NCBI GenBank assembly: GCA_019119995.1
Contig: DWVY01000046.1
Location: forward strand, 1 to 37,688
Source: Candidatus Mediterraneibacter faecavium
Lineage (GTDB): Bacteria; Bacillota; Clostridia; Lachnospirales; Lachnospiraceae
Length of the DNA: 37,688 bases
Reading direction: 5' to 3'
Below, piece after piece: positions 12,927-37,688 of this stretch; the first letter of the stretch is position 1, and each line of letters starts with the position of its first letter. The translations under genes and the position numbers were made by a program. The notes under the pieces are model-generated. The model had not been told where the DNA came from. It was given only the letters and a program-made list of their open reading frames with translations, and did no database searches.

Positions 12927-14405
12927 TTATTTAATCGTAATATACTTCTGATTCTTGCTGTTTGGCTTATCTGGTATCGTCATAGATATCCGGCCTTGTT
13001 GAAGAAGCGGAGTTAAGTATTTACGCACGGTCTTTTTATCACGATAGCCAAGATGCTCCATAATTTCTTGTATATTTTTCGCCTCTACACAAAATCTTAA
13101 TATGCGTTCCCCCATATCTGGTTCTTTAACCATGGACTTCTCATTTCTATCTGGGGGAATTTTTGTGTCAACTGGGGGAATTTCTGTTCCAACTGAGGGA
13201 ATTTCTGTTCTATCTGGTACATTTTCATTACCAACTGGTGCATACACTTTTGTCTCTAATCGTTCAAAAGGAATCGTCACCACAATACTATTCTCCCTAA
13301 GTTCAATACAGTCTTCACCATAAAGTTCCGTTATTTTAGGTACACCACGTCCAGAACGTTCGCTTATATGAAGCTGAAGAAAAATATCTGACAGTTTCTG
13401 GTTGACTGGAACTGATTCTCCTGCAAAAAAGCCTTCAACTGTCTGCTTCGGCGGCAGGTGCCCCCGAGACAATATTTCAAGTCTGTCCCGGAATCCCGTA
13501 AACATTGGCGCATTTCCATCTATCCATAAATTATGCACAAATGCATTGATTACCGCCTCTCTATACGCCTCAGCATGGAACAGCGGCACTTCCTTACGTT
13601 CAACAATACGGTTTCTTTCATCTGCCTGTGGAATATTCAGTACTTCCCCATAACGAAGCACATCATCCAAAGAATACAACAGACAAGTATTTCCGAACTC
13701 TCTGACAGAATACATTGTTGTTGATTTTGACTCTCCTGAAAACAAGGAAAAACGGACTGGAATATGGCTATTGTCAGAAAGCAACTGTGCCATCAGATTA
13801 TATTTTCCATCTTTCGTTAAGAGCCCGAGATTCTTTTTAAATGTACGCTTATTCAGAGTAATACCTTTCGCCTCATAGTATACAAATAATTTATTAAAGG
13901 TCAGATCCTGAAATTCCGATTCAGTATTTTCAATTGTCGGAAAACCATTTTTTAGAATATCAAACAGCCTTGATTCCCTCTCCGGGTATTCCATCAAATT
14001 CACTTTACTGGATCCGATCCGAAGATATCTCACGCGATCAAAAGCGGTAGGCACCGTTTTAGCAGCAGGTATCACAAGTACTACAATTCGTTTGCCTTCC
14101 AGCTCCATTTCATGGAAATCAAAGCTTATATCCGGTTTGACCATCCGCGCCAGATAGTGTTTGAGCGGCTCATTTCTAACATCCTGATGGATGTCAAAGG
14201 TTGTTCCCTTTATTATGTGAGTATTATTCTCTACTCCCCATACAAAGTACGCATATTCCTCGCCCACCATTGCCGCCGCATTAGACATGCCGGAAATATA
14301 CTCTCCTAGCGCATGAGACTCAAACCAGTTTACTTTAAATTCAAACCATTCCTCCTCATGCTTATGGGAAATAAGGTTTTTTACAATAGATTTAAGTTCA
14401 TTCAT
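12927..14405 (-). CDS. Schlafen/AlbA_2-domain ATP-binding transcriptional regulator
   Basis: A 492-residue protein of the group often labelled RecG-related or AlbA_2 regulators. The N-terminal AlbA_2 domain (about 10-135) shows EWFEFKVNW, the small-residue run ISGMSNAAAMVGEEYAYFVWGV and RYLRIGSSKVNLME. The middle holds the HATPase_c_4-like region (REAVINAFVHNLWIDGNAP, GFRDRLEILSRGHLP, LHISERSGRGVPKI). A winged-helix-like tail is at about 425-492. Between ATPase and tail lies a linker of heptapeptide repeats rich in E, I and P. It is monocistronic between the alpha/beta hydrolase gene and the hydrogenase operon. Function as a transcription or defence regulator is family-level inference; no toxin or phage gene lies near. 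Confidence 0.82.
   Translation of the reverse strand: MNELKSIVKNLISHKHEEEWFEFKVNWFESHALGEYISGMSNAAAMVGEEYAYFVWGVENNTHIIKGTTFDIHQDVRNEPLKHYLARMVKPDISFDFHEMELEGKRIVVLVIPAAKTVPTAFDRVRYLRIGSSKVNLMEYPERESRLFDILKNGFPTIENTESEFQDLTFNKLFVYYEAKGITLNKRTFKKNLGLLTKDGKYNLMAQLLSDNSHIPVRFSLFSGESKSTTMYSVREFGNTCLLYSLDDVLRYGEVLNIPQADERNRIVERKEVPLFHAEAYREAVINAFVHNLWIDGNAPMFTGFRDRLEILSRGHLPPKQTVEGFFAGESVPVNQKLSDIFLQLHISERSGRGVPKITELYGEDCIELRENSIVVTIPFERLETKVYAPVGNENVPDRTEIPSVGTEIPPVDTKIPPDRNEKSMVKEPDMGERILRFCVEAKNIQEIMEHLGYRDKKTVRKYLTPLLQQGRISMTIPDKPNSKNQKYITIK
13149..13232. repeat. 21-bp in-frame tandem repeats in AlbA_2 gene
   Basis: Four units of 21 bp (13149-13169, 13170-13190, 13191-13211, 13212-13232), the first three with the core CTGNGGGAATTT. 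On the coding strand they encode heptads such as VGTEIPP and VDTKIPP in the linker before the winged helix. The last unit is the most diverged. Confidence 0.85.
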
Positions 14406-14626: not shown

Positions 14627-14670
14627 AAAAACGGGAAGAACTCCGCAAATTTGAAATTCTTCCCGTTTTT
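14627..14670 (-). terminator. terminator of the ech operon
   Basis: A 14-bp perfect stem (AAAAACGGGAAGAA at 14627-14640, TTCTTCCCGTTTTT at 14657-14670) directly abuts the echF stop codon. On the minus strand the second arm ends in a T-run, so it should stop the hydrogenase transcript. By symmetry it may act from the other side too. The rest of 14406-14626 shows no gene. Confidence 0.88.
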
Positions 14671-15234
14671 TTATTCCTTCAGCTCTATCGCCTTCTTCGG
14701 ACATGCCCCCGCGCAGATGCCGCACTCCACGCATTTCTCTTCATCCAGTTTCCAGACTTTCTCTTTTCTTTCCACATGGATCGCTTCCTGCGGGCATTTC
14801 TTCGCGCAGAGCGTACAGTAAACGCACTTCTCTGCATCCATCACAGGCTTTCCGCCTGCCGCTGCCACATTCTCTTTCTTTTCTTCCTTCGGCCTGGTAA
14901 ATGTCTCGCTCTTCTTCAGGATATCCGGCTCCGTATACCCTTTCTCCATGAACAGGCATTTCTTCGGGCATGTCGCTACGCAGAACCCGCACTGCACGCA
15001 GTCGAACCGCTCGATCGTCCACGTCCCGGCTTTCCGGTCTACGCGGATCGCCTGGGAGGGACACGATCTCATGCACAGACCGCAGCTGATGCAGTTCTCG
15101 ATCTCGATACGGATATGTCCCCGCATCCGCTCCGGATATTCCACAGGCTCAAAAGGATACTGTGTTGTCGCCGGTTTTTTGAAGAGGTTCTTGATCACCC
15201 TTCCGGCAAATGTAAACATTCTCGTCTTTTTCAT
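14671..15234 (-). CDS. echF: Ech hydrogenase ferredoxin-like subunit, four [4Fe-4S] motifs
   Basis: A 187-residue polyferredoxin, last gene of the hydrogenase operon. It has four CxxCxxCxxxCP motifs: C48/51/54/58, C79/82/85/89, C137/140/143/147 and C168/171/174/178. The spacing within each pair is the same (31 residues), which points to internal duplication of a two-cluster NuoI/EchF module. A charged linker of about 45 residues separates the halves. Known EchF/NuoI-type subunits have two clusters, so this one is double. It should carry electrons from soluble ferredoxin to the small subunit on the cytoplasmic side of the membrane. AAAGGAG lies upstream of the ATG. The ech assignment comes from gene order. 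Confidence 0.88.
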   Translation of the reverse strand: MKKTRMFTFAGRVIKNLFKKPATTQYPFEPVEYPERMRGHIRIEIENCISCGLCMRSCPSQAIRVDRKAGTWTIERFDCVQCGFCVATCPKKCLFMEKGYTEPDILKKSETFTRPKEEKKENVAAAGGKPVMDAEKCVYCTLCAKKCPQEAIHVERKEKVWKLDEEKCVECGICAGACPKKAIELKE

Positions 15235-15252
15235 ACTGCTGCTCCTTTCCGC

Positions 15253-16332
15253 CTAACGCTCCGTACAGCTTATACACGGATCGATCGTCAGAACGAGGAT
15301 CGGGACATCCGCAAGCTGGCACCCCTTAAGCGTCTCCACCAGCGGCGGGATATTGCTCGTCGTCGGCGTGCGCAGCCGGAAACGATCCAGATATTTCGTT
15401 CCGTTTCCTTTCACATAATAGATTGCCTCTCCTCTGGGCTGCTCGATCCGCGCAAAATACTCTCCTGACGGATTTCCTTTTACCGGCACGCTGATATCTC
15501 CGGACGGTATTTTCCCGATTGCCTCCCGGATCAGGTCAAAGGACTGGAAAAGCTCCTGAAGTCTTACCTCGCACCGCCCGTAGGAATCTCCGTCATTCGA
15601 CGTGATCGGCTTTACTGTCAGATCCTTATAAGCCCCGTAGCCGAGCATGCGGACGTCATACTCCACGCCGCTGGCTCTGAGCATCGGTCCTACCGCGCCA
15701 AGCGCGACAGCTTCTTCTTTCTTCAGAACGCCTATCCCCTTCAGACGGCTCTGTACAGTGTAGTCCTGGAGGAATGTGGTCACTACGGGCTTTATGTCTT
15801 TTTCGATATCCTTGACCGCCTCCAGCAGATGATGCAGCATCATAGTGTCCATATCTTTCTGGACGCCGCCCACCTTATTGACCGAGTGGATGATCCTGCC
15901 GCCCGCTGTCTCGTCAAACATATCGAGTATCTTCTCACGGAGCCTCCAGCTCTCCATGAACAGGCTCTCAAAGCCCAGCGCATCTGCCAGGAGCCCCAGC
16001 CAGAGCAGATGGCTGTGGATACGGCTCATCTCCACCCAGATTGCACGCAGATAATTTGCTCTCTCCGGCACCTCGATGCCCATGACTTCCTCTACCGCCA
16101 TGCAGTAGCCCAGCCCGTGCCCGCAGCTGCAGATACCGCAGATCCGCTCCGCTATATAACAATACTGTTTAAAATCTCTTTTCTCTACAAGTTTCTCAAG
16201 TCCTCTGTGGATATAGCCGATACTCGGGACCGCCTGTACCACAGTCTCATCCTCCAGCACCAGATCCAGATGTACCGGCTCCGGCAGTACCGGATGCTGA
16301 GGACCGAAAGGTACGATACTTCTCTTTGCCAT
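15253..16332 (-). CDS. echE: Ech-type [NiFe] hydrogenase large subunit
   Basis: A 359-residue catalytic subunit (NuoD-related) that holds the NiFe(CN)2CO site and makes or oxidises H2. Metal ligands are C65 and C68 in RICGICSCGHG and C353 and C356 in DPCISCTER. PFGPQHPVL near the N-terminus and IGYIHRGLEKL are typical of the complex I/group 4 family. The protein ends at the Arg of the last motif, so there is no C-terminal peptide to be cut off. This matches the lack of a maturation-protease gene. It starts behind AGGAG, 6 nt after echD. Length agrees with group 4 Ech large subunits. Confidence 0.95.
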   Translation of the reverse strand: MAKRSIVPFGPQHPVLPEPVHLDLVLEDETVVQAVPSIGYIHRGLEKLVEKRDFKQYCYIAERICGICSCGHGLGYCMAVEEVMGIEVPERANYLRAIWVEMSRIHSHLLWLGLLADALGFESLFMESWRLREKILDMFDETAGGRIIHSVNKVGGVQKDMDTMMLHHLLEAVKDIEKDIKPVVTTFLQDYTVQSRLKGIGVLKKEEAVALGAVGPMLRASGVEYDVRMLGYGAYKDLTVKPITSNDGDSYGRCEVRLQELFQSFDLIREAIGKIPSGDISVPVKGNPSGEYFARIEQPRGEAIYYVKGNGTKYLDRFRLRTPTTSNIPPLVETLKGCQLADVPILVLTIDPCISCTER

Positions 16333-16338
16333 CTTTTC

Positions 16339-16683
16339 CTACTCCTTCTTAAACGGTGTTTCTACATCGATCCGGTATAATTTATCTTTATAATCCGGCT
16401 TGATCGTCCTGATCTTCACGCCGAACAACTGCTCCGCCTCATTTTCCTGAAGAAATGCACAGGGATAGATCTGCGTGATACTTGCGACTTCCTCGTCCTC
16501 CGCCACTTCCAGCCTGAGCGTCACCATATCGTATCTCAGACAGAAAGAATAGCTCATCTCATATCCTCCCTCGATGCAGGTGGCGCAGATCTGCACCAGA
16601 CGCCAGCATTCCGTCTTCATGTGTACAACGGCCGGGAAGAATTCCGCTGCAGTGATCTTTCTGATCTCGTTCTTGCCTTCCAT
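16339..16683 (-). CDS. echD: Ech hydrogenase NuoC-like subunit
   Basis: A 114-residue hydrophilic subunit related to the 30-kDa NuoC subunit of complex I. It has the motif YPCAFLQENEAEQLFGVKI, matching the NuoC-type segment that precedes the large-subunit contact region, and ends in a charged tail. I set the start at ATG 16683, with GGGAGG 8 nt upstream; the GTG at 16692 overlaps the echC stop and would remove the spacing. It has no metal ligands and is thought to support the interface of small and large subunits. Short genes of this kind are typical of echD. Confidence 0.88.
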   Translation of the reverse strand: MEGKNEIRKITAAEFFPAVVHMKTECWRLVQICATCIEGGYEMSYSFCLRYDMVTLRLEVAEDEEVASITQIYPCAFLQENEAEQLFGVKIRTIKPDYKDKLYRIDVETPFKKE

Positions 16684-16688
16684 CACCG

Positions 16689-17126
16689 TCACCTCCCGTC
16701 CTTCGCCATAGCCGCCTGTTTTGCATCCAGTATCTCCAACGCCTTGACAACTCCGTCGATAATGGATTCCGGGCGTGCGGCGCAGCCCGGCACATATACG
16801 TCCACCGGGATCACTGTGTCGATCCCGCCTTTGATATTATAACATTCTTTAAATACGCCGCCCGTACAGGCACAGATCCCGACCGCCACCACGACCTTCG
16901 GTTCCGGCATCTGGCTGTAGATCTGTTTTACCACACTCTCGGTCTGGCTGTTCACACCTCCTGTGATCAGCAGGATATCCGCCTGGAACGGGTCTCCTGT
17001 ATTGATGATCCCAAAGCGCTCGATGTCGTATTTCGGTGTGAGGCAGTCGAGGACCTCAATGTCACATCCGTTGCAGCTGCTGGCGTCATAGTGGAGCAGC
17101 CACGGTGATTTTGATACTTTATTCAT
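16689..17126 (-). CDS. echC: Ech hydrogenase small subunit (NuoB-like)
   Basis: A 145-residue electron-transfer subunit. The proximal [4Fe-4S] ligands are C18 and C21 (SSCNGCDIE), C85 (VGICACTGG) and C115 (VPGCAARPE), the standard NuoB/group 4 pattern. It has no signal peptide, as expected for a cytoplasm-facing group 4 enzyme. It joins EchF to the active site in EchE and docks on the membrane arm. ATG with AGGAGG upstream, 15 nt after the echB stop. Confidence 0.94.
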   Translation of the reverse strand: MNKVSKSPWLLHYDASSCNGCDIEVLDCLTPKYDIERFGIINTGDPFQADILLITGGVNSQTESVVKQIYSQMPEPKVVVAVGICACTGGVFKECYNIKGGIDTVIPVDVYVPGCAARPESIIDGVVKALEILDAKQAAMAKDGR

Positions 17127-17141
17127 AATTTAGCCTCCTGC

Positions 17142-18005
17142 TCACTTGTCCAACATAAGGATCAGTATATTCACTCCGCCGGCTACCAGAGTTACCACCC
17201 AGCAGCTGTAGAGAAGCGTCTTCCATTTTACACGCGCACTGATATTATCCCACAGCGTCTCCATGAAGAAGATCACGGCGCAGATCAGGACCGCAGCGAT
17301 CCAGCTCCACCATGTGCTGTTGATAAAGAAGAGACAGAAGATCCCGAGCAGCAGCACCATTTCATAGTATTCCGCTATGTTCATGATAGCGAGCGTGGTG
17401 CCGGACATCTCTGTCGTCAGTCCTTTCACCATCTCCTGATGCGCATGATGACTCGTGGAAAGGTCGAAAGGCGATTTTCTGAATTTGATCGCCGCCGTAA
17501 ACATAAAGCCGACCAGCAGTCCCGGCATCCACAGCACCGCGCTCGTATCGGCGCGGATGATATCGGACACCTGGAAAGAGCCTGTCGTCAGATAGAAGCC
17601 CACTGCAATGAGAAGCGTCAGCGGCTCATAGGCCATCATCTGCAGCATCTCCCTGCTGGCTCCCATGTTCGCATATGGCGAGGAGTCGCTGGACGCCGCC
17701 ATGATCAGGAACATATCCGCGGTACTTAAGATAAAGAGCACCATCAGAAGATCCGCCCCGTAGAAGAGCATACAGCCCGCGATCATCAGGATCACAAGGT
17801 AGCTCAGGTTCAGGAGGAGCTGCACATTATTGACCGCGATCATCTCTTTGGAGAAAAGTTTCCCCAGGTCATAAAACGGCTGGAGAAGGCTTGGCCCTTT
17901 CCTCCGCTGCATCCTCGCGCTGATGATACGGTCCACTCCGTCCAGAAGCGCCCCGAGGAACGGTGCCAGGATCAGATAAGCCAGTACAAATACGATTTTT
18001 ACCAT
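17142..18005 (-). CDS. echB: Ech hydrogenase membrane subunit (NuoH-like)
   Basis: A 287-residue membrane protein with about eight transmembrane helices, related to NuoH/HycD. Near the N-terminus GVDRIISARMQRRKGPS is the conserved cytoplasmic loop of the family, and the segment KFRKSPFDLSTSHHAHQE is the second family loop next to the hydrogenase module. It anchors the soluble arm and takes part in coupling H2 chemistry to ion translocation. It starts 7 nt before the echA stop (overlap), with GGAGG upstream. Confidence 0.93.
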   Translation of the reverse strand: MVKIVFVLAYLILAPFLGALLDGVDRIISARMQRRKGPSLLQPFYDLGKLFSKEMIAVNNVQLLLNLSYLVILMIAGCMLFYGADLLMVLFILSTADMFLIMAASSDSSPYANMGASREMLQMMAYEPLTLLIAVGFYLTTGSFQVSDIIRADTSAVLWMPGLLVGFMFTAAIKFRKSPFDLSTSHHAHQEMVKGLTTEMSGTTLAIMNIAEYYEMVLLLGIFCLFFINSTWWSWIAAVLICAVIFFMETLWDNISARVKWKTLLYSCWVVTLVAGGVNILILMLDK

Positions 18006-19888
18006 GACACACCTCCTATTACGAGACAGAATCCGACGACGAGCACAGCCGCCGCCATAATGAGCGACGGGATCCGCAGATGCCTGCGGCCGAACTCAAA
18101 ACGCAGATACCAGTTGCTTAAGTACAGATGTTCTTTCTTGCCGTAACTGTTCATAAAGAAACGGTTGTCTCCCTCGTTGATGCCGTTCATATAGATCGGC
18201 ACGATCTCCCTGTGGGATCTCCTGCTGATAAAGAACATGGCTGCCGGCACGATAAAGATAGAGACAAGCATGATCGCCATAGTCGTCAGCACGCTCATGG
18301 AGAGCACGTCTTTGGAATTGCCGAACAGTTCTCTTATGATCGGGTTCACCATCCACTTCGCCACCAGCGGCAGGAGCAGACAGAGCAGGAGCATGACCGC
18401 CGCATGGAAGAACATGGACACATATTCATCCTTCCGTGTCACGTCTTTTACTTTTTCCCTCGGTATGTGGAAGCACAGCAGCTTTGCCAGCCATTTCGTC
18501 CAGTAGAACATGGTCGTGGCGCTTCCGTATGCGATAAAGAGCACCAGCACCACGTTGCCAGAATCCACAAATGACTTAAGCGCCACCCATTTTGAAATGA
18601 GCATTCCGAACGGCGCCAGATACATGCCGGCGATCCCGATGCCCATTATGTAGGCAAGCCTCGGGACTGTGATGATCAGGCCGTGCATATTTTCGATATC
18701 CCGGGAGCCCAGCGTATTCTCAGTGGCTCCCACAGACTGGAACAGCATGGACTTGCTGACCGCATGGAAGATCATAAGGAAGACTGCCGCCCATACCGTC
18801 TCCTCCACACCGATACCGGAACATGCCACGATAAGTCCCAGATTAGATATAGTGGAAAATGCCAGTACCTTTTTCGCATCATTCTGCGCGATTGCCATCA
18901 TACTTGCCATGATAAATGTAAGTCCGCCGATACTGGACACGATGATCCCCACCAGATTTCCTTCAAGCGCCGGCGAAATACGGATCAGCAGGTACACGCC
19001 CGCTTTCACCATCGTCGCGCTGTGCAGCAATGCACTTGACGGCGTCGGAGCCACCATTGCGCCCAGCAGCCACGTAGAGAACGGCAGCTGCGCAGACTTG
19101 GTCAGCCCTGCAAGGGACAGGCACATCAGCGGCAGGAGCGCTCCGATATTTACTACTTCAAGCAGCTGGAGCGTCCCGTGCAGCTGTGCCATCAGCGCGA
19201 TGGCCACGGCAAAGCCAAGACCGCCCAGCAGGTTCATCCACAATGCGCAGAAGCTGTTGTTTACCGCTTCTTCGGACCGTGTATATCCGATCATCAAAAA
19301 CGAGATCACACTTGTGATCTCCCAGAAGAAATAGATCCAGACCAGGTTCTGGGACAGCACCAGACCGAACATCGCCGCAAGGAACAAAAACAGCATGGAG
19401 AAGAAGAACGGCTGTCTGTCCTTAACCTCCTTGTGGTGATTGTGGTATCCTTTCATATATCCGACCGTGTAGATACAGATAAAGCCTCCGATGAATGCGA
19501 TGATGATGCACATCAGGATCGTCAGCCAGTCCACCATCATATGCGGCCCCTCTTTCACATCCGCCGTAAACTCCGTATACAGCACGACCGCAGTCTGTAC
19601 CACAGACAGGATGATCGGAAGCACCTTTCCATATTTTATACTCAGATAGATGATCAGGCACATCAGGAACAGATCCCCCGCCACCATCAGATGATCGATC
19701 AGCTCAGTCTCCGGATAATACATCTGCACCCGGGCGCCGCCACCGATCCAGTTCACGATAAATATAACCGTCGTAAGCATAATAATACCGGCGCCTGCAT
19801 AAACGATGTATCCTCTCGCCTTCTCATTACGGATGAACTGAAATAACACCGCCAGCACCGCCGGGATCCCAATAAGCAATGGTATCAT
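17999..19888 (-). CDS. echA: Ech hydrogenase ion-pumping subunit (NuoL/HyfB-like)
   Basis: A 629-residue polytopic membrane protein with around fourteen or more transmembrane helices, an antiporter-like subunit related to NuoL/M/N. The core motif TKSAQLPFSTWLLGAM, then PTPSSALLHSATMVKAG with its conserved Lys, marks the ion-pumping fold; the Glu in IYFFWEITSVISF is the helix-5 acidic residue. I set the start at ATG 19888 with GGAGG 9 nt upstream; the longer frame start at 19912 is not needed. It is the first gene of the ech operon and likely pumps H+ or Na+ driven by ferredoxin oxidation. Length is close to that of known EchA proteins. Confidence 0.93.
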   Translation of the reverse strand: MIPLLIGIPAVLAVLFQFIRNEKARGYIVYAGAGIIMLTTVIFIVNWIGGGARVQMYYPETELIDHLMVAGDLFLMCLIIYLSIKYGKVLPIILSVVQTAVVLYTEFTADVKEGPHMMVDWLTILMCIIIAFIGGFICIYTVGYMKGYHNHHKEVKDRQPFFFSMLFLFLAAMFGLVLSQNLVWIYFFWEITSVISFLMIGYTRSEEAVNNSFCALWMNLLGGLGFAVAIALMAQLHGTLQLLEVVNIGALLPLMCLSLAGLTKSAQLPFSTWLLGAMVAPTPSSALLHSATMVKAGVYLLIRISPALEGNLVGIIVSSIGGLTFIMASMMAIAQNDAKKVLAFSTISNLGLIVACSGIGVEETVWAAVFLMIFHAVSKSMLFQSVGATENTLGSRDIENMHGLIITVPRLAYIMGIGIAGMYLAPFGMLISKWVALKSFVDSGNVVLVLFIAYGSATTMFYWTKWLAKLLCFHIPREKVKDVTRKDEYVSMFFHAAVMLLLCLLLPLVAKWMVNPIIRELFGNSKDVLSMSVLTTMAIMLVSIFIVPAAMFFISRRSHREIVPIYMNGINEGDNRFFMNSYGKKEHLYLSNWYLRFEFGRRHLRIPSLIMAAAVLVVGFCLVIGGVSW

Positions 19889-19922
19889 TATCGTAATCCT
19901 CCTTTCACACACTCTCCCTTTA

Positions 19923-20087: not shown

Positions 20088-20471
20088 ATGCATGAGCTGA
20101 GCATAACCGAACATCTGCTGGAGGACTGCATCCGCGAGGCGCAGGCGCAGAACGCATCCAGGATCCGCGTCATACGGCTGTGCATCGGGCAGCTCCGCGG
20201 GATCGTCCCCGACTGTATCCAGATCTATCTCGACATGCTCGCAGAGGGCACGATCGCAGAAGGCGCCCGCATCGAATCAGAGACGCTTCCCGTCAAGGTT
20301 CACTGCATGGACTGCGGGAAAGACGGAGAGATCACTCCCCACCACCTGCAATGCCCACATTGCGGGAGTATGAAGCTTAAGCTCCTGTCCGGAAAAGAAT
20401 TCTATATCAAAAGCTTGGAGGTAGACATCGATGGAGATAAAAGTATTGCATCAGGTAATGGACTGGAATGA
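20088..20471 (+). CDS. hypA: hydrogenase maturation nickel chaperone HypA
   Basis: A 127-residue protein beginning MHELSIT, whose N-terminal amine, His2 and Glu3 bind Ni. The zinc site is C73/C76 and C89/C92 (CMDC, CPHC). It hands Ni to the large subunit together with HypB. The ATG at 20088 has AGGAGG 8 nt upstream; the frame is open further upstream but those residues have no family counterpart. It opens the hyp operon, divergent from ech. It overlaps hypB by 41 nt, so the last 13 codons are shared in another frame. Confidence 0.96.
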   Translation: MHELSITEHLLEDCIREAQAQNASRIRVIRLCIGQLRGIVPDCIQIYLDMLAEGTIAEGARIESETLPVKVHCMDCGKDGEITPHHLQCPHCGSMKLKLLSGKEFYIKSLEVDIDGDKSIASGNGLE

Positions 20472-21087
20472 AGATGTAAGCGAAGAAGTAAAGGAAACAC
20501 TTTCCTCTCATCACATCTGTATGATCAACGTAATGGGCAGCCCCGGAGCCGGAAAGACAAGCCTTATCACTTCTCTGATCGGTACATTAAGGAAAGACTG
20601 GCGCGCAGGCGTCATCGAAGGCGACATCGCGGGACAGATAGATGCGGAGCGCATTGCAGATCTGGGTATCCCCTCCGTCCAGCTCAACACAGACGGAGCA
20701 TGCCACATCGAGGCCATGAGCATCCAGCATATCCTGCCGGAGCTTCCGCTCGATGACCTGGACGTCATATTCGTCGAAAATATCGGAAATCTCGTATGCC
20801 CCGCAGAGTTCCGCATCGGGGAGTCTCTGCGGATCACGATCCTAAGCATCCCCGAGGGCGACGACAAAGTGGAGAAATACCCCCTCATGTTCACGGATAC
20901 GGACTGCCTTGTCCTGAACAAATACGATATGCTCCCGTACTTTGACTTTGATGAAGCAAGAGTCCAAGCCAACTATGAGACCGTAAATCCCGGCGCTCCT
21001 CTCTTCCGGATCAGCAGCCGGACCGGGGACGGCATACAGGAACTCGCTGACTTTATCTCGGAGCAGATCCGGAAAGCACAGTCATGA
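20431..21087 (+). CDS. hypB: hydrogenase nickel-insertion GTPase HypB
   Basis: A 218-residue GTPase. P-loop GSPGAGKTS at 36-44, the switch segment VIEGDIAGQIDAERI, the metal-site motif NTDGACHIEA and the guanine specificity motif NKYD are all present. It lacks the His-rich nickel-storage tail seen in some HypB proteins. It works with HypA to insert Ni into the apo large subunit. GGAGG lies 9 nt before the ATG inside hypA, and the stop overlaps the hypF start (ATGA). Confidence 0.96.
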   Translation: MEIKVLHQVMDWNEDVSEEVKETLSSHHICMINVMGSPGAGKTSLITSLIGTLRKDWRAGVIEGDIAGQIDAERIADLGIPSVQLNTDGACHIEAMSIQHILPELPLDDLDVIFVENIGNLVCPAEFRIGESLRITILSIPEGDDKVEKYPLMFTDTDCLVLNKYDMLPYFDFDEARVQANYETVNPGAPLFRISSRTGDGIQELADFISEQIRKAQS

Positions 21088-23603
21088 AGATCATTCGCAT
21101 TGAAGTGGAAGGGATCGTACAGGGCGTAGGCTTCCGCCCGTTTCTTCACCGGCTCGCGTCACGGCACCATATCTGCGGCTGGGTGCGCAACACCTCAGCA
21201 GGACTGGAAGGCATCCTTGAGGGTGAGCCGGAAGAGCTGGAGCGTTTCATCGAAGAACTGCGATCATCCCCGCCGCCCATGGCACAGATTGAAGCGGTCC
21301 GGGTGGAAAATGCAGATGCTGCTTCGGCAAATATGGATGCTGATCCGGCGCATGCCGGTGCGTCTTCTCCCACGGCACAGCCGTCCGGGACTTTCAAGCA
21401 TTTTACAATACGTGACAGCCGCATAAAGGCCGGCGCGACCCTCATTTCTCCGGATACCGCCATGTGTCCGGAATGTGAGGCAGAGCTCTATACCCCGTCA
21501 GACCGCAGATACCGTTACCCCTTTATCAACTGTACGAACTGCGGGCCCAGATATACCATCATCGAGGCGCTGCCCTATGACCGGGAACGGACAGTGATGA
21601 AAGAGTTCCCCATGTGCGGAGACTGTGAGAATGAATACAATGATATCAGCGACCGGCGGTATCATGCCCAGCCCGACTGCTGCCCGGAATGCGGACCGGA
21701 AGTCTTCTATATTAAATCTTCAGAGAAACCGGCTGATCCTTCTGCGGCGCCTGTCTCTTCTTCGCAGTCTGTCTCCTCTACGCTGCCTGTCAGCGGTGAC
21801 GATGCGTTCCGCCGCTCTCAGGAACTCCTCGCAGACGGCGGCATCCTTGCAGTCAAGGGAATCGGCGGCATCCATCTCGCCTGTGACGCGTTGGATCCCG
21901 ACGCAGTATACAGACTGCGCGGACGCAAGCACAGGGCTGAAAAACCTCTGGCGGTCATGTGCCGTTCTCTCGAAGCAGCACGCCGGATCTGCGAGATCAC
22001 GCCAGAAGAAGAGAAACTTCTGACAAGTCCCGCACGGCCGATCGTCCTTCTCGCAAAGCGGACGAACAGCTCGAGGGCGCTCGACGCTCTCAGCTTCAGC
22101 GCAAGGCTCGGTGTGATGCTGCCCTATACGCCTCTTCACACATTGCTTCTTGACAGCGCTTACGGCGGGCCGGACATCCTTGTCATGACGAGCGGAAATG
22201 TGCCGGGCTGTCCCGTACTCACAGATAACGATGCAGCTTTGGACGCGCTTTCAGGTGTCGCAGACGGTTTTCTCCTGCATAACCGCAGGATCGCAAACCG
22301 GTGCGATGACTCTTTAATAGCCGAATGGCAGGGGCGCCCCTATTTCCTGCGCAGGAGCCGGGGCTATGCTCCCCGCCCGCTGGAACTTCGCTTATCCGAT
22401 AGAACAGACGGATCACCGGCCGGTACTGTTTCCGGCAGTATTTCTGCCAGTATTTCTGCCAGTGTTCCGCCAGACGGCAGCCGTCCCCCTATATCTGCCG
22501 ACGGTATCTTTGCATTTGGCGCCGAGCAGAAGGCTTCCTTCGCACTGGGACGGGATTCGCATATATTCCTGAGTCCTTATATCGGGGATCTGAAGAATGC
22601 CGAGACATTTGAGCACTACACACAGGCTATGCAGACTTATGAAAGACTCTTCCGGCTGAAGCCCGCTCTCTATGTCTGCGACCTGCACCCGGACTATCTG
22701 TCCACCTGCGAAGCGAAACGGCGCGCCGCGTCAGATCACGTTCCGCTTCTCCAGGTCCAGCACCACTGGGCGCACATGACGTCCTGCATGGCGGATAATA
22801 ATCTGAGCGGGCCGTGCTTCGGGATCATCTGGGACGGCACCGGTCTGGGAACTGACGGAACGATATGGGGCGGAGAATTTTTTATCGGAGATTACGAAAA
22901 CTTTCAGCGTGCCGGCTCGATCCGCCCGATACTTCTGCCCGGCGGCGACCGCGCGGTCCGCGAGATCGGCAGGATCGCGCTCTCGCTCATAACAGACGCG
23001 GGGATCCGGGACTTTTCCCGCGTTCCTCTGACAGAGGAAAAATGCCGGATGTTATCCGGATTGATGGAGACATTGCCGCAGTCTGTGCCGGCAGCCAGCA
23101 GCATCGGGCGGCTGTTCGACGGAATCTGCGCTCTTCTTCTGGATCGTTCGGAAGTCGATTACGAGGGCGAGGGCGCCGCTCTTGTAGAAGCGCTCTCTCC
23201 GGCCGAGACGCCGGAACAGCTATCTGCCGGACTGCAGACACTTGCCTATCCGGTCACATTTTACGAGAAAGACGGAATCCGCATCTTCGATACGCGTCCG
23301 ATGATCCGCAGTCTTATAGACGAACTGGATCAGCACAGAGATAAGTGTCTTCTCGCCCTGCGCTTTATGTCAACGCTTGTCTACATGGCAGCGGATCAGT
23401 GCATGACGCTGAATCCTGACAGGTTTCCTGTCGTACTCTCCGGCGGAGTCTTCCAGAACCGTTTTCTCCTGCATGGTGTTGCTTCCCTGCTAGAAGAGAA
23501 AGGATTTGCGGTGTATACTCATCATCGGGTATCCGCAAATGATGAGGGGATTGCGCTGGGACAGCTCGCTATCGCCGGCTGCAGACGGAAAGCGACCGAA
23601 TAA
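21084..23603 (+). CDS. hypF: carbamoyltransferase HypF
   Basis: An 839-residue protein that makes the thiocarbamate on HypE, precursor of the cyanide ligands. Domains in order: acylphosphatase (1-90; VEGIVQGVGFRPF, WVRNTSAG), double zinc-finger (about 125-205; CPEC, CTNC, CGDC, CPEC), YrdC-like (about 245-420; KGIGGIHLACDA, MLPYTPLHTLLL), and Kae1-like carbamoyltransferase (about 470-835; QHHWAHMTS, VVLSGGVFQNRFLL). It is some 60-80 residues longer than most HypF because three low-complexity linkers (Ala/Asp, Ser/Pro, Ser/Gly-rich) lie between domains. One of them is a 12-bp tandem repeat. It follows hypB with ATGA overlap. Confidence 0.96.
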   Translation: MKIIRIEVEGIVQGVGFRPFLHRLASRHHICGWVRNTSAGLEGILEGEPEELERFIEELRSSPPPMAQIEAVRVENADAASANMDADPAHAGASSPTAQPSGTFKHFTIRDSRIKAGATLISPDTAMCPECEAELYTPSDRRYRYPFINCTNCGPRYTIIEALPYDRERTVMKEFPMCGDCENEYNDISDRRYHAQPDCCPECGPEVFYIKSSEKPADPSAAPVSSSQSVSSTLPVSGDDAFRRSQELLADGGILAVKGIGGIHLACDALDPDAVYRLRGRKHRAEKPLAVMCRSLEAARRICEITPEEEKLLTSPARPIVLLAKRTNSSRALDALSFSARLGVMLPYTPLHTLLLDSAYGGPDILVMTSGNVPGCPVLTDNDAALDALSGVADGFLLHNRRIANRCDDSLIAEWQGRPYFLRRSRGYAPRPLELRLSDRTDGSPAGTVSGSISASISASVPPDGSRPPISADGIFAFGAEQKASFALGRDSHIFLSPYIGDLKNAETFEHYTQAMQTYERLFRLKPALYVCDLHPDYLSTCEAKRRAASDHVPLLQVQHHWAHMTSCMADNNLSGPCFGIIWDGTGLGTDGTIWGGEFFIGDYENFQRAGSIRPILLPGGDRAVREIGRIALSLITDAGIRDFSRVPLTEEKCRMLSGLMETLPQSVPAASSIGRLFDGICALLLDRSEVDYEGEGAALVEALSPAETPEQLSAGLQTLAYPVTFYEKDGIRIFDTRPMIRSLIDELDQHRDKCLLALRFMSTLVYMAADQCMTLNPDRFPVVLSGGVFQNRFLLHGVASLLEEKGFAVYTHHRVSANDEGIALGQLAIAGCRRKATE
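22425..22472. repeat. 12-bp in-frame tandem repeats in hypF
   Basis: Units at 22425, 22437, 22449 and 22461; the middle two are the identical 12-mer AGTATTTCTGCC. They encode a Ser/Ala/Ile run between the YrdC-like and Kae1-like domains. Confidence 0.85.
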
Positions 23604-23639
23604 AGAAAGAGTTTTCTGAAGAAAAGAGGATTATATTAT

Positions 23640-23858
23640 ATGTGTTTAGCAATGCCTATGAAGATCAGTAAAATAGACGGCGCTCTGGCGCAGTGTGAAG
23701 CAGGCGGCCTCACGCAGGATATCCGAATTGACTTCATCACAGACGCACAGCCGGGCGATTACGTTATGGTGCACGCCGGATTTGCCATCGAAAAGATGTC
23801 TGAAAAAGAAGCTCTTGAAAATATGGAACTTCTGGAGGAGATCAAAAATGCTCTATAA
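23640..23858 (+). CDS. hypC: hydrogenase assembly chaperone HypC
   Basis: A 72-residue HypC/HybG chaperone. It starts MCLAMP; after Met removal C2 binds HypD and then the large subunit during assembly of Fe(CN)2CO. The segment PGDYVMVHAGFAIEKM is the conserved beta-barrel strand and helix start. Its end overlaps the hypD start by 11 nt. A weak AGAGG lies upstream. Confidence 0.96.
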   Translation: MCLAMPMKISKIDGALAQCEAGGLTQDIRIDFITDAQPGDYVMVHAGFAIEKMSEKEALENMELLEEIKNAL

Positions 23859-24939
23859 CAGCTATTTTAAAAAGCCGAAAGACGTACCTCTGCTTCTTGA
23901 TAAGATAAGGGAGTACAGCGACAAGACCGGCCCGATCCGCCTGATGGAAATCTGCGGGACGCACACCATGGCGATCGCCCGCAGCGGGATCCGGAGCATA
24001 CTGCCGGAAAACGTACAGCTCCTCTCCGGCCCCGGGTGTCCGGTCTGCGTTACTCCTTCAAATATGATCGACATGGTCCTTGACCTGTCACAGAGACCGG
24101 GCGTGCTGATCACAAGTTACGGTGATCTCCTGCGCGTTCCCGGGGCAGCGCAGGGAGACAGTCTTCTGGCGCGCAGAGCGGACGGCGGCAAAGTCGAATC
24201 CGTCTACTCGCCTGTGGATGCTATTAAGATCGCAGAAGAGCATCCCGACACAGAAGTCATTTTCCTCGGAGTCGGTTTCGAGACAACCGCGCCCGGAACC
24301 GCCGCCTGTATCCTTGAGGCGGCATCCCGGAAGCTTGATAATTTTTCCGTGCTGTGTCTGTTAAAACGGACAGAGCCTGCCATCCGCTCCCTCATCGAGT
24401 CTGATGACTTCGCAGTAAACGGCTTTCTCTGCCCCGGGCATGTGGCCGCTGTCATCGGAGCTGACGGCTTTTCCTTTCTCCCGAAAGATTACCGCCTGCC
24501 GGGTGTGGTAAGCGGTTTCGAGCCCGGAGATCTCCTGTATTCCATACTGGAGCTGACAGAAATGCTCGCAAAGGGGACGCCGGAATTAAAAAATGAATAT
24601 ACCCGTCTTGTGCGGCAGAATGGGAATCCTGCCGCCCTAGCATTAATGGACAAGGTATTCTGCCCCTGCGCATCAGACTGGAGAGGGCTCGGACAGATTC
24701 CGGGCAGCGGCTATAAGATCAGGGAAGAATATGCGAAGTGGGACGCCGTGAAGAAATTTTCTCTCACTCCCGCAGAAGCAAAGGAAATACCCGGCTGCCG
24801 CTGCGCCCAGATCATACGCGGCGTCATGCGGCCGACAGAGTGCCCGCTGTTCAGAAAAGTCTGCTCTCCGGATAATCCCGTGGGACCGTGCATGGTTTCC
24901 GGCGAGGGTGCCTGTGCAGCAGCATACCAGTACGGATAA
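23848..24939 (+). CDS. hypD: hydrogenase Fe-cofactor assembly protein HypD
   Basis: A 363-residue [4Fe-4S] scaffold on which, with HypC, the Fe(CN)2CO unit is assembled. The signatures are EICGTHTMAI (C36), GPGCPVCVTP (C64, C67), the GFETTAPGTAA motif and a C-terminal cysteine set (FCPCASDWRG, PGCRCAQIIRG, CPLFRKVCSP) that binds the cluster. The start is the ATG at 23848, inside the end of hypC, with GGAGG upstream. An open frame extends to 23695, but it overlaps hypC out of frame and has no family residues. Confidence 0.96.
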   Translation: MLYNSYFKKPKDVPLLLDKIREYSDKTGPIRLMEICGTHTMAIARSGIRSILPENVQLLSGPGCPVCVTPSNMIDMVLDLSQRPGVLITSYGDLLRVPGAAQGDSLLARRADGGKVESVYSPVDAIKIAEEHPDTEVIFLGVGFETTAPGTAACILEAASRKLDNFSVLCLLKRTEPAIRSLIESDDFAVNGFLCPGHVAAVIGADGFSFLPKDYRLPGVVSGFEPGDLLYSILELTEMLAKGTPELKNEYTRLVRQNGNPAALALMDKVFCPCASDWRGLGQIPGSGYKIREEYAKWDAVKKFSLTPAEAKEIPGCRCAQIIRGVMRPTECPLFRKVCSPDNPVGPCMVSGEGACAAAYQYG

Positions 24940-25054
24940 AAAACAAACTTATTTGACCCTTGCGACAGCCGCCAAATGGACATGCAGGTATGTCCGCCGG
25001 ACTCGCTGCCCGCGGGAATAAAACACGAACAATAGGGAAACAGAGGTAATGACC

Positions 25055-26146
25055 ATGAATGACAGAATAAAAGATGACAGAATTACTCTTGATTACGGAA
25101 GCGGTGGCTTAAAGACCTCGGAACTGATCGAGTCGATCCTACTGCCCGCATTTGACAATGCAATGCTCTCTCAGCTTGGTGACGGCGCCATCCTTGGCGG
25201 CAGTGACAAGCTGGTATTCTCAACAGACAGCTTTGTCGTTTCTCCGTGGAAATTCCCGGGCGGAGATATCGGCAAGCTTTCTGTCTGCGGAACAGTAAAT
25301 GATCTGTGTATGGCCGGCGGAATCCCGAAATACCTGAGTCTGTCTTTTATATTAGAAGAAGGCTTTTCTTTCTCTGATTTTAAAAGTATCGTCTCCTCGA
25401 TCGCAGATGAAGCGAAAGAGGCCGGCGTATCCATCGTGACCGGCGACACCAAAGTCGTGGACTCCGGCAAAGGCGACGGGATCTATATCAACACTGCCGG
25501 TATCGGTTTCCAGAGAGCCGTCCTTCCCGGGAAGTCTGCCCTCCGTCCGGGGGACGCTGTTCTCGTCAGCGGAACCATCGGCTGCCACGGCGCCGCCGTT
25601 ATGATGGCCCGCTCCGGTCTGCTCCGCGAAGACAGTCCGCTCGTCTCCGACTGCCAGCCGCTGAACAGGATCAGCGCGGCTGCCCTTGAAGCCGCCGGTA
25701 TGACTGCCGATATGCCTGTGCATCTGCCCGACAGTTCTGCACCTGTCCGTACTGCGCCCGTCCGTACTGCGCCTGTCCGGATCCTGCGCGACCCGACCAG
25801 AGGCGGAGTCGCCACCACGCTCAATGAGTTCACAGAACAGATGCCGTTCTCCATCGAACTGGATGAAACAGCGCTCCCCGTCGATCCCGCGGTAGAAGCC
25901 GCCTGCGATATGCTCGGCCTCGATCCGCTCTACTGCGCCTGTGAAGGACGGATGCTCGCGGTCTGCGCACCGGAAGCCGCCGATGCAGTCCTCGATGCAA
26001 TAAAAAAAGTCCCCGGCGGCGAGAACGCTGCCCGGATTGGCACCGTAACCGAAGACATGCCCGGCAGAGCCCTCCTCAAAACCCCCATCGGCGGCAGAAG
26101 GATCCTCGCCAAACTAACCGGCATGCAATTACCGAGGATATGTTAA
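25055..26146 (+). CDS. hypE: hydrogenase cyanide-forming protein HypE
   Basis: A 363-residue PurM-like ATPase. It dehydrates the HypF-made thiocarbamate on its C-terminal Cys to thiocyanate, and its last residues are PRIC as required. ITLDYGSGGLKTSELI, FSTDSFVVSPWKFPGGDIGKL and RDPTRGGVATTLNEF are family motifs. ATG 25055 is favoured over 25049 because AGAGG then sits 8 nt away. A 15-bp tandem repeat (APVRT units) has expanded just before RDPTRGG. It lies 115 nt after hypD; the gap holds a small hairpin around GGACAT/ATGTCC but no gene. Confidence 0.95.
   Translation: MNDRIKDDRITLDYGSGGLKTSELIESILLPAFDNAMLSQLGDGAILGGSDKLVFSTDSFVVSPWKFPGGDIGKLSVCGTVNDLCMAGGIPKYLSLSFILEEGFSFSDFKSIVSSIADEAKEAGVSIVTGDTKVVDSGKGDGIYINTAGIGFQRAVLPGKSALRPGDAVLVSGTIGCHGAAVMMARSGLLREDSPLVSDCQPLNRISAAALEAAGMTADMPVHLPDSSAPVRTAPVRTAPVRILRDPTRGGVATTLNEFTEQMPFSIELDETALPVDPAVEAACDMLGLDPLYCACEGRMLAVCAPEAADAVLDAIKKVPGGENAARIGTVTEDMPGRALLKTPIGGRRILAKLTGMQLPRIC
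25739..25783. repeat. 15-bp in-frame tandem repeats in hypE
   Basis: Three units (25739-25753, 25754-25768, 25769-25783) with the pattern GCNCCNGTCCGTACT encode APVRT, APVRT and APVRI. The last leads directly into the conserved LRDPTRGG motif. Confidence 0.92.
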
Positions 26147-36619: not shown

Positions 36620-37688
36620 CCTACAACCACGACAAACGCATGAATGTGTTTCCCAACTAAACCTATCGATTTTCGTTTTTTTACAAATTCATAAGTTCAT
36701 CCAGATATTTTTCCGGATTTGTTCCGATCGCATACCTTTTCTTTTTCATACTTAATGGACGGCGTCCCACTTCTGCTATCTTTAAAATATTCAGTGCCAG
36801 CTTCCTGATAATATTCAGATTATAAGCCGCCTGCTTCTCTAATGTGTGATTCCCATCTTCCCGAAATGTCACATCTAAATGCCAGTGATAACTTTCTACC
36901 ATCCAGTGCCCCCTCACTGCTCTTTCTGCCTCTTCTATATCTGTTGGCAGGCTGCTGATAAAATATCTCTCCTCTACGGTCTCTTTTCCATCTGCTTCCT
37001 TTATAGTATTCCGTGTCAGGATTATGCTCTTTAACCCCGCCCACTCTTTCTTCTGGCTCAGCCACGAGATATCTTCTGTCTGCCAGTATTCCCGTTTCTC
37101 TATTTTCCCCCGCGCTTTTTCTACTTTCTGTTTATATGCGCATTTTTCCAGCAACTTTTCATCCGAAAAGTACTCTCTCACATCTTCCAGCAGGCTTCCC
37201 TGGTTCCCTTTTAATGCCAGCACATAATCCGCACGTTTCCTCCGGATCTTCTTTACTATGGCTGTCTGTGTTCCCATGGCATCGGTTGTTATGATGGTCC
37301 CTTTTATATTCAGGCTGTCTAATAATTCAGGTATTGCTGTGATCTCATTCGTTTTCTCTTCTACACGTTTTTGTCCCAGGCAAAAACCTCTTTCATCTAC
37401 TGCACTGACGATATGGTTGCCCTTCTGATCTTTCTTTCCATTTCCCCTCTGGGTTTTTCCATCGATCGCAAGCAGGCGCTTTACTTTTTCCCCCTCTTCG
37501 CTGTTTAACATTTCATTCCATCTTGTCTGGAAATTCTCCAAAAATTCAGAGGGTACCATGGCAAATACTCTCTGGAGCGTATCATGCGAAGGGATTCCAT
37601 AAGGAAGCTCCAGATAATTGCGCAGAAAATCCTCATGTTCTTTCCCAAACACTTCGATCTCTACCCAGTCATCCGCATTAGCAAGTGT
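36620..37688 (-). mobile_element. ISAs1-family insertion sequence, cut by window edge
   Basis: The transposase gene plus about 60 bp of 3' flank. The end that lies towards metG should be near 36620-36655, where CATGAATGTGTTTCCC resembles the ends of ISAs1/H-repeat elements. Neither the exact inverted repeat nor a target duplication could be fixed because the other end is outside the window. Confidence 0.65.
36681..37688 (-). CDS. ISAs1-family transposase (partial)
   Basis: The C-terminal 335 residues of a DDE transposase; the start lies beyond the right edge. The visible frame is open to the last base (it reads LANADDWVEIEVFGKEHE upstream of the in-frame GTG at 37652). Family motifs in order: PYGIPSHDTLQRVFA, LLAIDGKTQRG (first Asp), IITTDAMGTQ (second Asp), VLALKGNQGSL, and HWMVESYHWHLDVTFREDGN (Glu). 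The catalytic triad seems intact, with no frameshift, so it may be active. It sits directly upstream of the metG promoter, on the same strand. Confidence 0.92.
   Translation of the reverse strand, partial: TLANADDWVEIEVFGKEHEDFLRNYLELPYGIPSHDTLQRVFAMVPSEFLENFQTRWNEMLNSEEGEKVKRLLAIDGKTQRGNGKKDQKGNHIVSAVDERGFCLGQKRVEEKTNEITAIPELLDSLNIKGTIITTDAMGTQTAIVKKIRRKRADYVLALKGNQGSLLEDVREYFSDEKLLEKCAYKQKVEKARGKIEKREYWQTEDISWLSQKKEWAGLKSIILTRNTIKEADGKETVEERYFISSLPTDIEEAERAVRGHWMVESYHWHLDVTFREDGNHTLEKQAAYNLNIIRKLALNILKIAEVGRRPLSMKKKRYAIGTNPEKYLDELMNL

Follow-up and report, generated by a model that had tools for sequence, protein, structure and literature searches.

A predicted second dicluster domain on the EchF subunit of an Ech hydrogenase from Candidatus Mediterraneibacter faecavium

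EchF is a known subunit of Ech hydrogenases, and in Methanosarcina barkeri it has two predicted [4Fe-4S] clusters. Additional clusters upstream of such a subunit are familiar from separate proteins: in the formate hydrogenlyase of Escherichia coli a HycB-type subunit stands beside HycF and carries extra upstream clusters, and the Eha and Ehb hydrogenases of methanogens are fed by polyferredoxins with many clusters. Here we describe the echF gene of Candidatus Mediterraneibacter faecavium (Lachnospiraceae), which probably lives in the gut. The product of this gene contains four cluster motifs in a single chain. The gene is located on contig DWVY01000046.1 of assembly GCA_019119995.1; the whole stretch analyzed, 37,688 nucleotides (nt), is referred to as the window.

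Ech1F of Thermoanaerobacter kivui is described with two predicted clusters (PMC4320612). The window EchF matches it in its position in the complex, in its N-terminal (N) half and as a gene of an ech cluster; however, four clusters are predicted for the window protein, whereas for Ech1F only two are, and a second dicluster domain is not reported in the available text (PMC4320612). The Ech2 complex of T. kivui has seven predicted clusters and a separate HycB2 subunit (PMC9356269), which likewise adds clusters upstream of those of EchF/HycF. HycB2 is a subunit of its own, whereas in the window the additional clusters would lie in one chain and appear to come from an EchF-type module. The CooF polyferredoxin of the hydrogenase linked to carbon monoxide dehydrogenase (PMC5861303) also brings many clusters to an energy-converting [NiFe] hydrogenase, but as a separate protein, whereas here the EchF module is repeated within EchF. 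A related fold occurs in the C-terminal domain of HydB, which is reported to be mobile in the bifurcating HydABC (PMC9499530). Like the C-terminal (C) half of the window EchF, it is a tethered 2[4Fe-4S] domain, and the fold predicted for the C half is similar; HydB, however, belongs to another enzyme, and by sequence profile the C half is EchF-like. The echF of Moorella thermoacetica, at 555 bp (PMC13040438), is close to the window echF in length, the only property compared. One survey counted some Butyrivibrio and Pseudobutyrivibrio genomes as lacking EchF (PMC4478896), and gut group 4e hydrogenases have been named among those still needing characterization (PMC12578642). No description of an EchF with four or more clusters was found in the available text of the open-licence literature searched.

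The window EchF and the kinship of its halves

The window contains a complete echABCDEF operon on the minus strand (14671-19912), with echF as its last gene. All six genes lie in one operon and EchE has both CxxC pairs of the NiFe site, as expected of an Ech-type enzyme. The gap between echE and echF is 18 nt, AAAGGAG precedes echF, and a hairpin with a T run follows its stop codon; we therefore regard echF as a complete, operon-terminal gene. Its parts are:

14671 to 15234, minus strand: echF, 187 amino acids (aa), four CxxCxxCxxxCP motifs, Pfam Fer4 families
14941 to 15114, minus strand: N module, residues 41-98, EchF/NuoI-type dicluster domain with the signature VDR....W; predicted fold like HycF and NuoI
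14848 to 14940, minus strand: linker, residues 99-129, with a conserved first part (GYTEPD..KKSETFTRP) and then a variable tether
14674 to 14847, minus strand: C module, residues 130-187, second EchF-like dicluster domain with CVYCTLCAKKCPQEAI.V[DE]R..K.W; predicted fold like the C-terminal domain of HydB

The C..C..C...C motif occurs exactly four times, at residues 48, 79, 137 and 168, and the spacing is 31 residues for C48-C79 as well as for C137-C168. The tether is rich in A, G, P, K and E across relatives. An earlier note on this DNA, written from the letters and their reading frames, had named the gene echF and described two equally spaced CxxCxxCxxxCP pairs joined by a charged linker, in contrast to the two clusters of known EchF. 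The operon, the motif count, the linker (about residues 99-129) and the description of T. kivui Ech1F (PMC4320612) bear this out.

The top NCBIfam matches of the protein are MbhN-like, NuoI and HycF-like models, each below its cut-off: TIGR01971 (NuoI) at 102.3 against 113.05 bits and NF006221 (MbhN-like) at 108.5 against 124 bits, neither model carrying Ech in its name. With four [4Fe-4S] motifs instead of the usual two, the window EchF is, judged by sequence, a variant within the EchF/NuoI subunit family (which includes MbhN and HycF). A HycB model was absent among the 25 of 116 NCBIfam matches listed, and the presence of four motifs and EchF in one chain argues against a HycB-type separate subunit. 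Within its own genome, the window EchF was the sole full-length match.

Several measures bear on the kinship of the halves. In a gap-free alignment, 22 of 57 positions are identical, 14 of them non-Cys. With the Cys columns removed, the BLOSUM62 score is 76, compared to a shuffled mean of -42.3 (z 8.4), and none of 100,000 shuffles scored as high. A profile built from 49 distinct modules of two-motif EchFs gave 65.3-83.5 bits (median 75.5) for 143 distinct C modules, as opposed to 11.7-47.3 bits for 23 other dicluster modules, controls drawn from the source genome only. With the reverse profile the N modules had medians of about 70 bits, and other dicluster modules reached at most 43.5. N and C modules both show the signature VDR....W. 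On account of the alignment score, the profile scores in both directions and this signature, the C half is, by descent as read from sequence, an EchF-type module, and the two halves are paralogues. With modules of the source genome as the only controls, the C half was not closer by sequence to the ferredoxin domains of HydB or the 2-oxoacid oxidoreductases than to EchF.

AlphaFold2, run with 83 sequences, predicted two folded halves with a mean predicted local distance difference test (pLDDT) score of 77.1 and a predicted template modeling (pTM) score of 0.54; residues 117-126 of the linker had pLDDT values below 50, consistent with a flexible tether. In structural alignments of the model, residues 31-114 matched HycF, 1-113 several NuoI-type chains and 4-117 MbhN, and the model has the N-terminal helix and NuoI-fold dicluster domain typical of the EchF/NuoI family. 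Residues 124-186 matched the C-terminal domain of HydB, and the predicted C-half fold also matched domains of a sulfite reductase and of 2-oxoacid oxidoreductases.

Residues 1-40 had a median pairwise ratio of nonsynonymous to synonymous rates (dN/dS) of 0.152; the corresponding values were 0.112 in the N module, 0.102 in the alignable part of the linker and 0.098 in the C module. These medians come from 33 loci that keep all four motifs intact and whose EchE is at least 80% identical, using pairs with dS from 0.1 to 1.5; selecting intact motifs biases the N- and C-module values alike. The C module is under purifying selection about as strong as that on the N module. The cysteines, R156 and W161 are invariant in 83 sequences selected for four motifs.

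Distribution and history of the second module

The second domain is common in close relatives and in many related gut bacteria, and its distribution across the family is patchy. When loci were found through EchE, 20 of 200 genomes in the family sample matched; 19 had an Ech whose EchE was at least 58% identical, and of their EchFs 16 have two motifs and three, the window included, have four. The class sample (51 of 391 genomes matched) contributed another 33 Ech loci, at an EchE identity of 55% or more; their EchFs have two motifs in 32 cases and six in one, L035. A family census with an EchF profile, built from four-cluster proteins, matched 52 of 397 genomes at E 1e-30 or better: 41 have two motifs, six have four, three have six, one has eight and one has fourteen, and in four of the 52 it is another hydrogenase, of Mrp/Mbh-like type where checked, that carries the extra modules. 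Genome G688, from the same genus as the window, was without a match in this census. In the class, the same type of search matched 34 of 391 genomes.

Searches with four-cluster proteins, which favor four motifs, yielded 261 loci, the best 80 of which were named; L082, a stretch without echE, was left unscored, and the other 79 comprise 73 with four motifs, two with six, three with two and one with three. The 120 of 437 EchF matches that were listed divide into 86 with four, 22 with six, seven with two and five with three. The four-motif form occurs in named genomes recorded as Mediterraneibacter, Gemmiger, Faecalibacterium, Anaeromassilibacillus, Faecalicoccus, Faecalitalea and Merdibacter, and six motifs are found within Ech itself in L233 (genome G630), L035, L149 and L154. 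The earlier note had reasoned that a four-cluster EchF would be nothing special if most related EchFs had one. This applies locally, in the biased search just described, but in the EchE-found samples of family and class the two-motif form dominates.

The EchE phylogeny was calculated from 98 of 129 rows after removal of near-copies; the partial sequences of L133, L136 and L151 were dropped, and EchEs below 46% identity were not used. Nine labels were assigned by hand from reading frames; L128, with only three strict motifs, was labelled four, and L134, whose frame ends after the first module, was left unscored. The window falls into a supported clade of 44 rows from several families, 40 with four motifs, three with two and one unscored. 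Over the whole tree the labels two, four and six require nine changes (ten with the unscored row), and the supported branches force at least five changes for the four-cluster label. In L150 (6971-7351, plus strand) and L153 (6935-7381, plus strand), whose EchE shares 87% identity with that of the window, the EchF frame stops within the linker, and no remnant of a second module was seen in about 500 nt downstream of either echF. These two loci are a natural version of EchF without the C half.

Two phylogenies of the modules were compared. In the first (167 rows, 57 columns), the EchF C-type modules all lie on one side of one branch, with a value of 92 in the Shimodaira-Hasegawa-like approximate likelihood ratio test; only 12 of the 163 inner branches were starred. 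In the second (146 rows), to which further modules, some of them from Mbh-like operons, were added, the four-cluster C modules cluster with support of 96/96. The C halves of four-cluster EchFs are separate from the N halves in both trees. In the second tree the C-type modules as a whole are no longer on one side of one branch (four changes): the Mbh-like modules and, from six-cluster proteins, certain second and third modules lie outside the four-cluster C group, some of both between the N and C groups, which tells against a simple single origin. This tree is the weaker of the two, with 57 columns, an unsettled bootstrap and a split outgroup. Second and third modules are mutually nearest in it within P0055 and within L231, and share the same small groups in P0058 and P0087.

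In our reading of these trees, which are short and not fully resolved, N and C modules separated once, long ago, and C modules were copied afterward. We reject a fresh duplication confined to the lineage of the window, as C modules of four-cluster EchFs from several families cluster with each other and not with their own N modules. The doubling proposed in the earlier note thus holds in that the halves are paralogous, related modules and not unrelated ferredoxins, but it did not happen recently here: the C half appears to be an older module lineage, shared across families, multiplied in some, and missing from L150 and L153, where parsimony points to loss.

The four census genomes with modules on another hydrogenase extend the series. 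L229, L230, L231 and L232 have 14, 8, 6 and 6 motifs, respectively, in a subunit of a different operon; their EchC is 46-48% identical to that of the window, EchE is 38-39% identical in L229 (partial) and L230, and the EchE of L231 and L232 lies outside the stretches read. The two longest are:

L229, 6565 to 8622, plus strand: 686-aa frame with 14 CxxCxxCxxxC motifs, six EchF-like modules after a NuoI-like first one, in an Mbh-like operon
L230, 3 to 8449, plus strand: Mrp/Mbh-like [NiFe] hydrogenase operon with MnhB, antiporter, NuoH-, NuoB- and NuoD-like genes and an eight-motif entry subunit

In L230 the MnhB-type gene lies upstream, and the large subunit retains CGIC and CFSC. Scored with the EchF-module profile, the first modules of the four proteins, which have a spacing of 37 residues, reach only 21.8-41.4 bits; of the 13 further modules, 12 give 69.7-82.0 bits and one gives 66.6. 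EchF-like modules are thus present on another type of hydrogenase as well. The multi-motif genomes are drafts, in which repeats may be assembled wrongly. In L229 a 1410-aa frame with a VWA domain adjoins the 14-motif subunit. The 109-aa protein P0133, on a contig of 30,880 bases, is a C-type module alone, whose start resembles the linker of the Mbh-like subunits; the gene may be split or have a misassigned start. Tentatively, and with the balance of our judgment still against it, the C module could be a portable wire-extension cassette, derived from EchF and appended in one to six copies to the entry subunits of Ech and Mrp/Mbh-like hydrogenases in gut Firmicutes, up to a polyferredoxin of 14 clusters, which would make wire length and electron capacity tunable, evolving properties.

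The ech operon and its surroundings

The other genes of the operon, its terminator and the divergent maturation genes are:

15253 to 16332, minus strand: echE, [NiFe] large subunit with both CxxC pairs (CGIC at 65, CISC at 353)
16339 to 16692, minus strand: echD, 30 kDa subunit family
16689 to 17126, minus strand: echC, small subunit, NuoB family
17142 to 18005, minus strand: echB, membrane subunit, NuoH family
17999 to 19912, minus strand: echA, antiporter-like membrane subunit
14627 to 14670, minus strand: hairpin and T run immediately past the echF stop, likely the ech operon terminator (-24.8 kcal/mol, z -6.69)
20088 to 26146, plus strand: divergent hyp maturation genes, as follows
20088 to 20471, plus strand: hypA
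20431 to 21087, plus strand: hypB
21084 to 23603, plus strand: hypF
23640 to 23858, plus strand: presumably hypC, named after its MCLAMP start
about 23848 to 24939, plus strand: hypD
25049 to 26146, plus strand: hypE

The hairpin was not among the elements listed by a separate scan. In all 131 Ech loci with EchE at least 50% identical, echF is on the same strand as echE and at most 1200 nt from it, a count in which many EchFs were chosen through their nearness to echE. The next gene downstream of the terminator encodes a Schlafen/AlbA_2-domain protein (12927-14405, minus strand), and an ISAs1-family transposase (36681-37652, minus strand) lies near the end of the window.

Proposed electron entry and alternative explanations

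We consider it reasonably probable that the second domain, on its flexible tether, gives this Ech an EchF with four [4Fe-4S] clusters and is the site of ferredoxin entry, from which electrons would reach the NiFe site by way of the first domain and then EchC. HycF and MbhN adjoin the small subunit in solved structures; since the predicted fold of the N half, with its N-terminal helix, is that of HycF, NuoI and MbhN, the N half would by analogy be seated next to EchC and EchE. This homology, together with the tether, suggests the order reduced ferredoxin, C half, N half, EchC, NiFe site. The C half would then form the far end of the wire and act as a swinging relay, picking up ferredoxin at a distance from the membrane; the probable gain would be reach toward ferredoxin and more electrons held by the complex. 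The earlier note had likewise suggested a longer wire or a second docking site, either of which the C half may provide. The source genome encodes pyruvate:ferredoxin oxidoreductase, RnfC and a group A6 [FeFe] hydrogenase over cut-off (and two further [FeFe]-hydrogenase-like proteins below it), so reduced ferredoxin likely has both makers and users.

Several observations weigh against this electron path. The pTM is 0.54, the first 40 residues have pLDDT values of just 58-70, and the model does not fix the relative placement of the halves; the contact between N half and EchC is drawn by analogy. No electrostatic sign of ferredoxin docking was seen in the net charges, with a median of +2 for C modules, +1/+2 for N modules and +1 for other diclusters. 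Finally, L150, L153 and L010 have no C module beside EchEs 87, 87 and 78% identical to that of the window, and a two-cluster EchF evidently works without it.

A different possibility, which we regard as unlikely, is that the C half is a dock for one specific partner, such as pyruvate:ferredoxin oxidoreductase or an [FeFe] hydrogenase, forming a direct channel without free ferredoxin. The C-half stretch CVYCTLCAKKCPQ, every position of which recurs in no fewer than 80% of the C modules compared (82 of 87), would suit such a dock, as would the match of the predicted fold to the built-in ferredoxin domains of 2-oxoacid oxidoreductases. However, no such partner gene was recognized in the ech operon of the window, and group A6 [FeFe] hydrogenase was over cut-off in 2 of 7 genomes with multi-cluster Ech and in 8 of 41 with two-cluster Ech, which reveals no link. 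RnfC was over cut-off in 3 of the 7 versus 36 of the 41; with few, related and partly incomplete genomes, no correction for relatedness or completeness, and RnfC present in the source genome itself, this is only a lead. Neither association of these ferredoxin enzymes with multi-cluster Ech was strong enough to use.

We also think it improbable that recombination between repeated modules left the C half as a dispensable by-product that is electrically connected but has little functional effect. Its presence and absence in many lineages, reflected in the changes on the EchE tree, and the EchFs of L150 and L153, which stop in the linker with no remnant seen downstream, are what such a by-product would leave behind. 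The low dN/dS of the C module and its invariant cysteines, R156 and W161 speak for constraint instead, as does the prevalence of four motifs in the main EchE clade (40 of 44 rows). That an unrelated ferredoxin of the PorD or HydB type was fused onto EchF is favored by the similarity in fold to HydB and oxidoreductase domains but is very improbable, given the EchF-like profile scores, the shared VDR....W, the module trees, and a search with the C half by itself, which found 21 proteins, of which ten were read (six apparent EchF pieces, one lone C-type module and three more distant ferredoxins).

Energy-converting hydrogenases whose entry subunits have 2, 4, 6, 8 and 14 motifs form a natural series that amounts to an experiment on wire length, which could address effects on rate, ferredoxin affinity, electron storage or direction of flow. 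The number of clusters per Ech should not be assumed from model enzymes.
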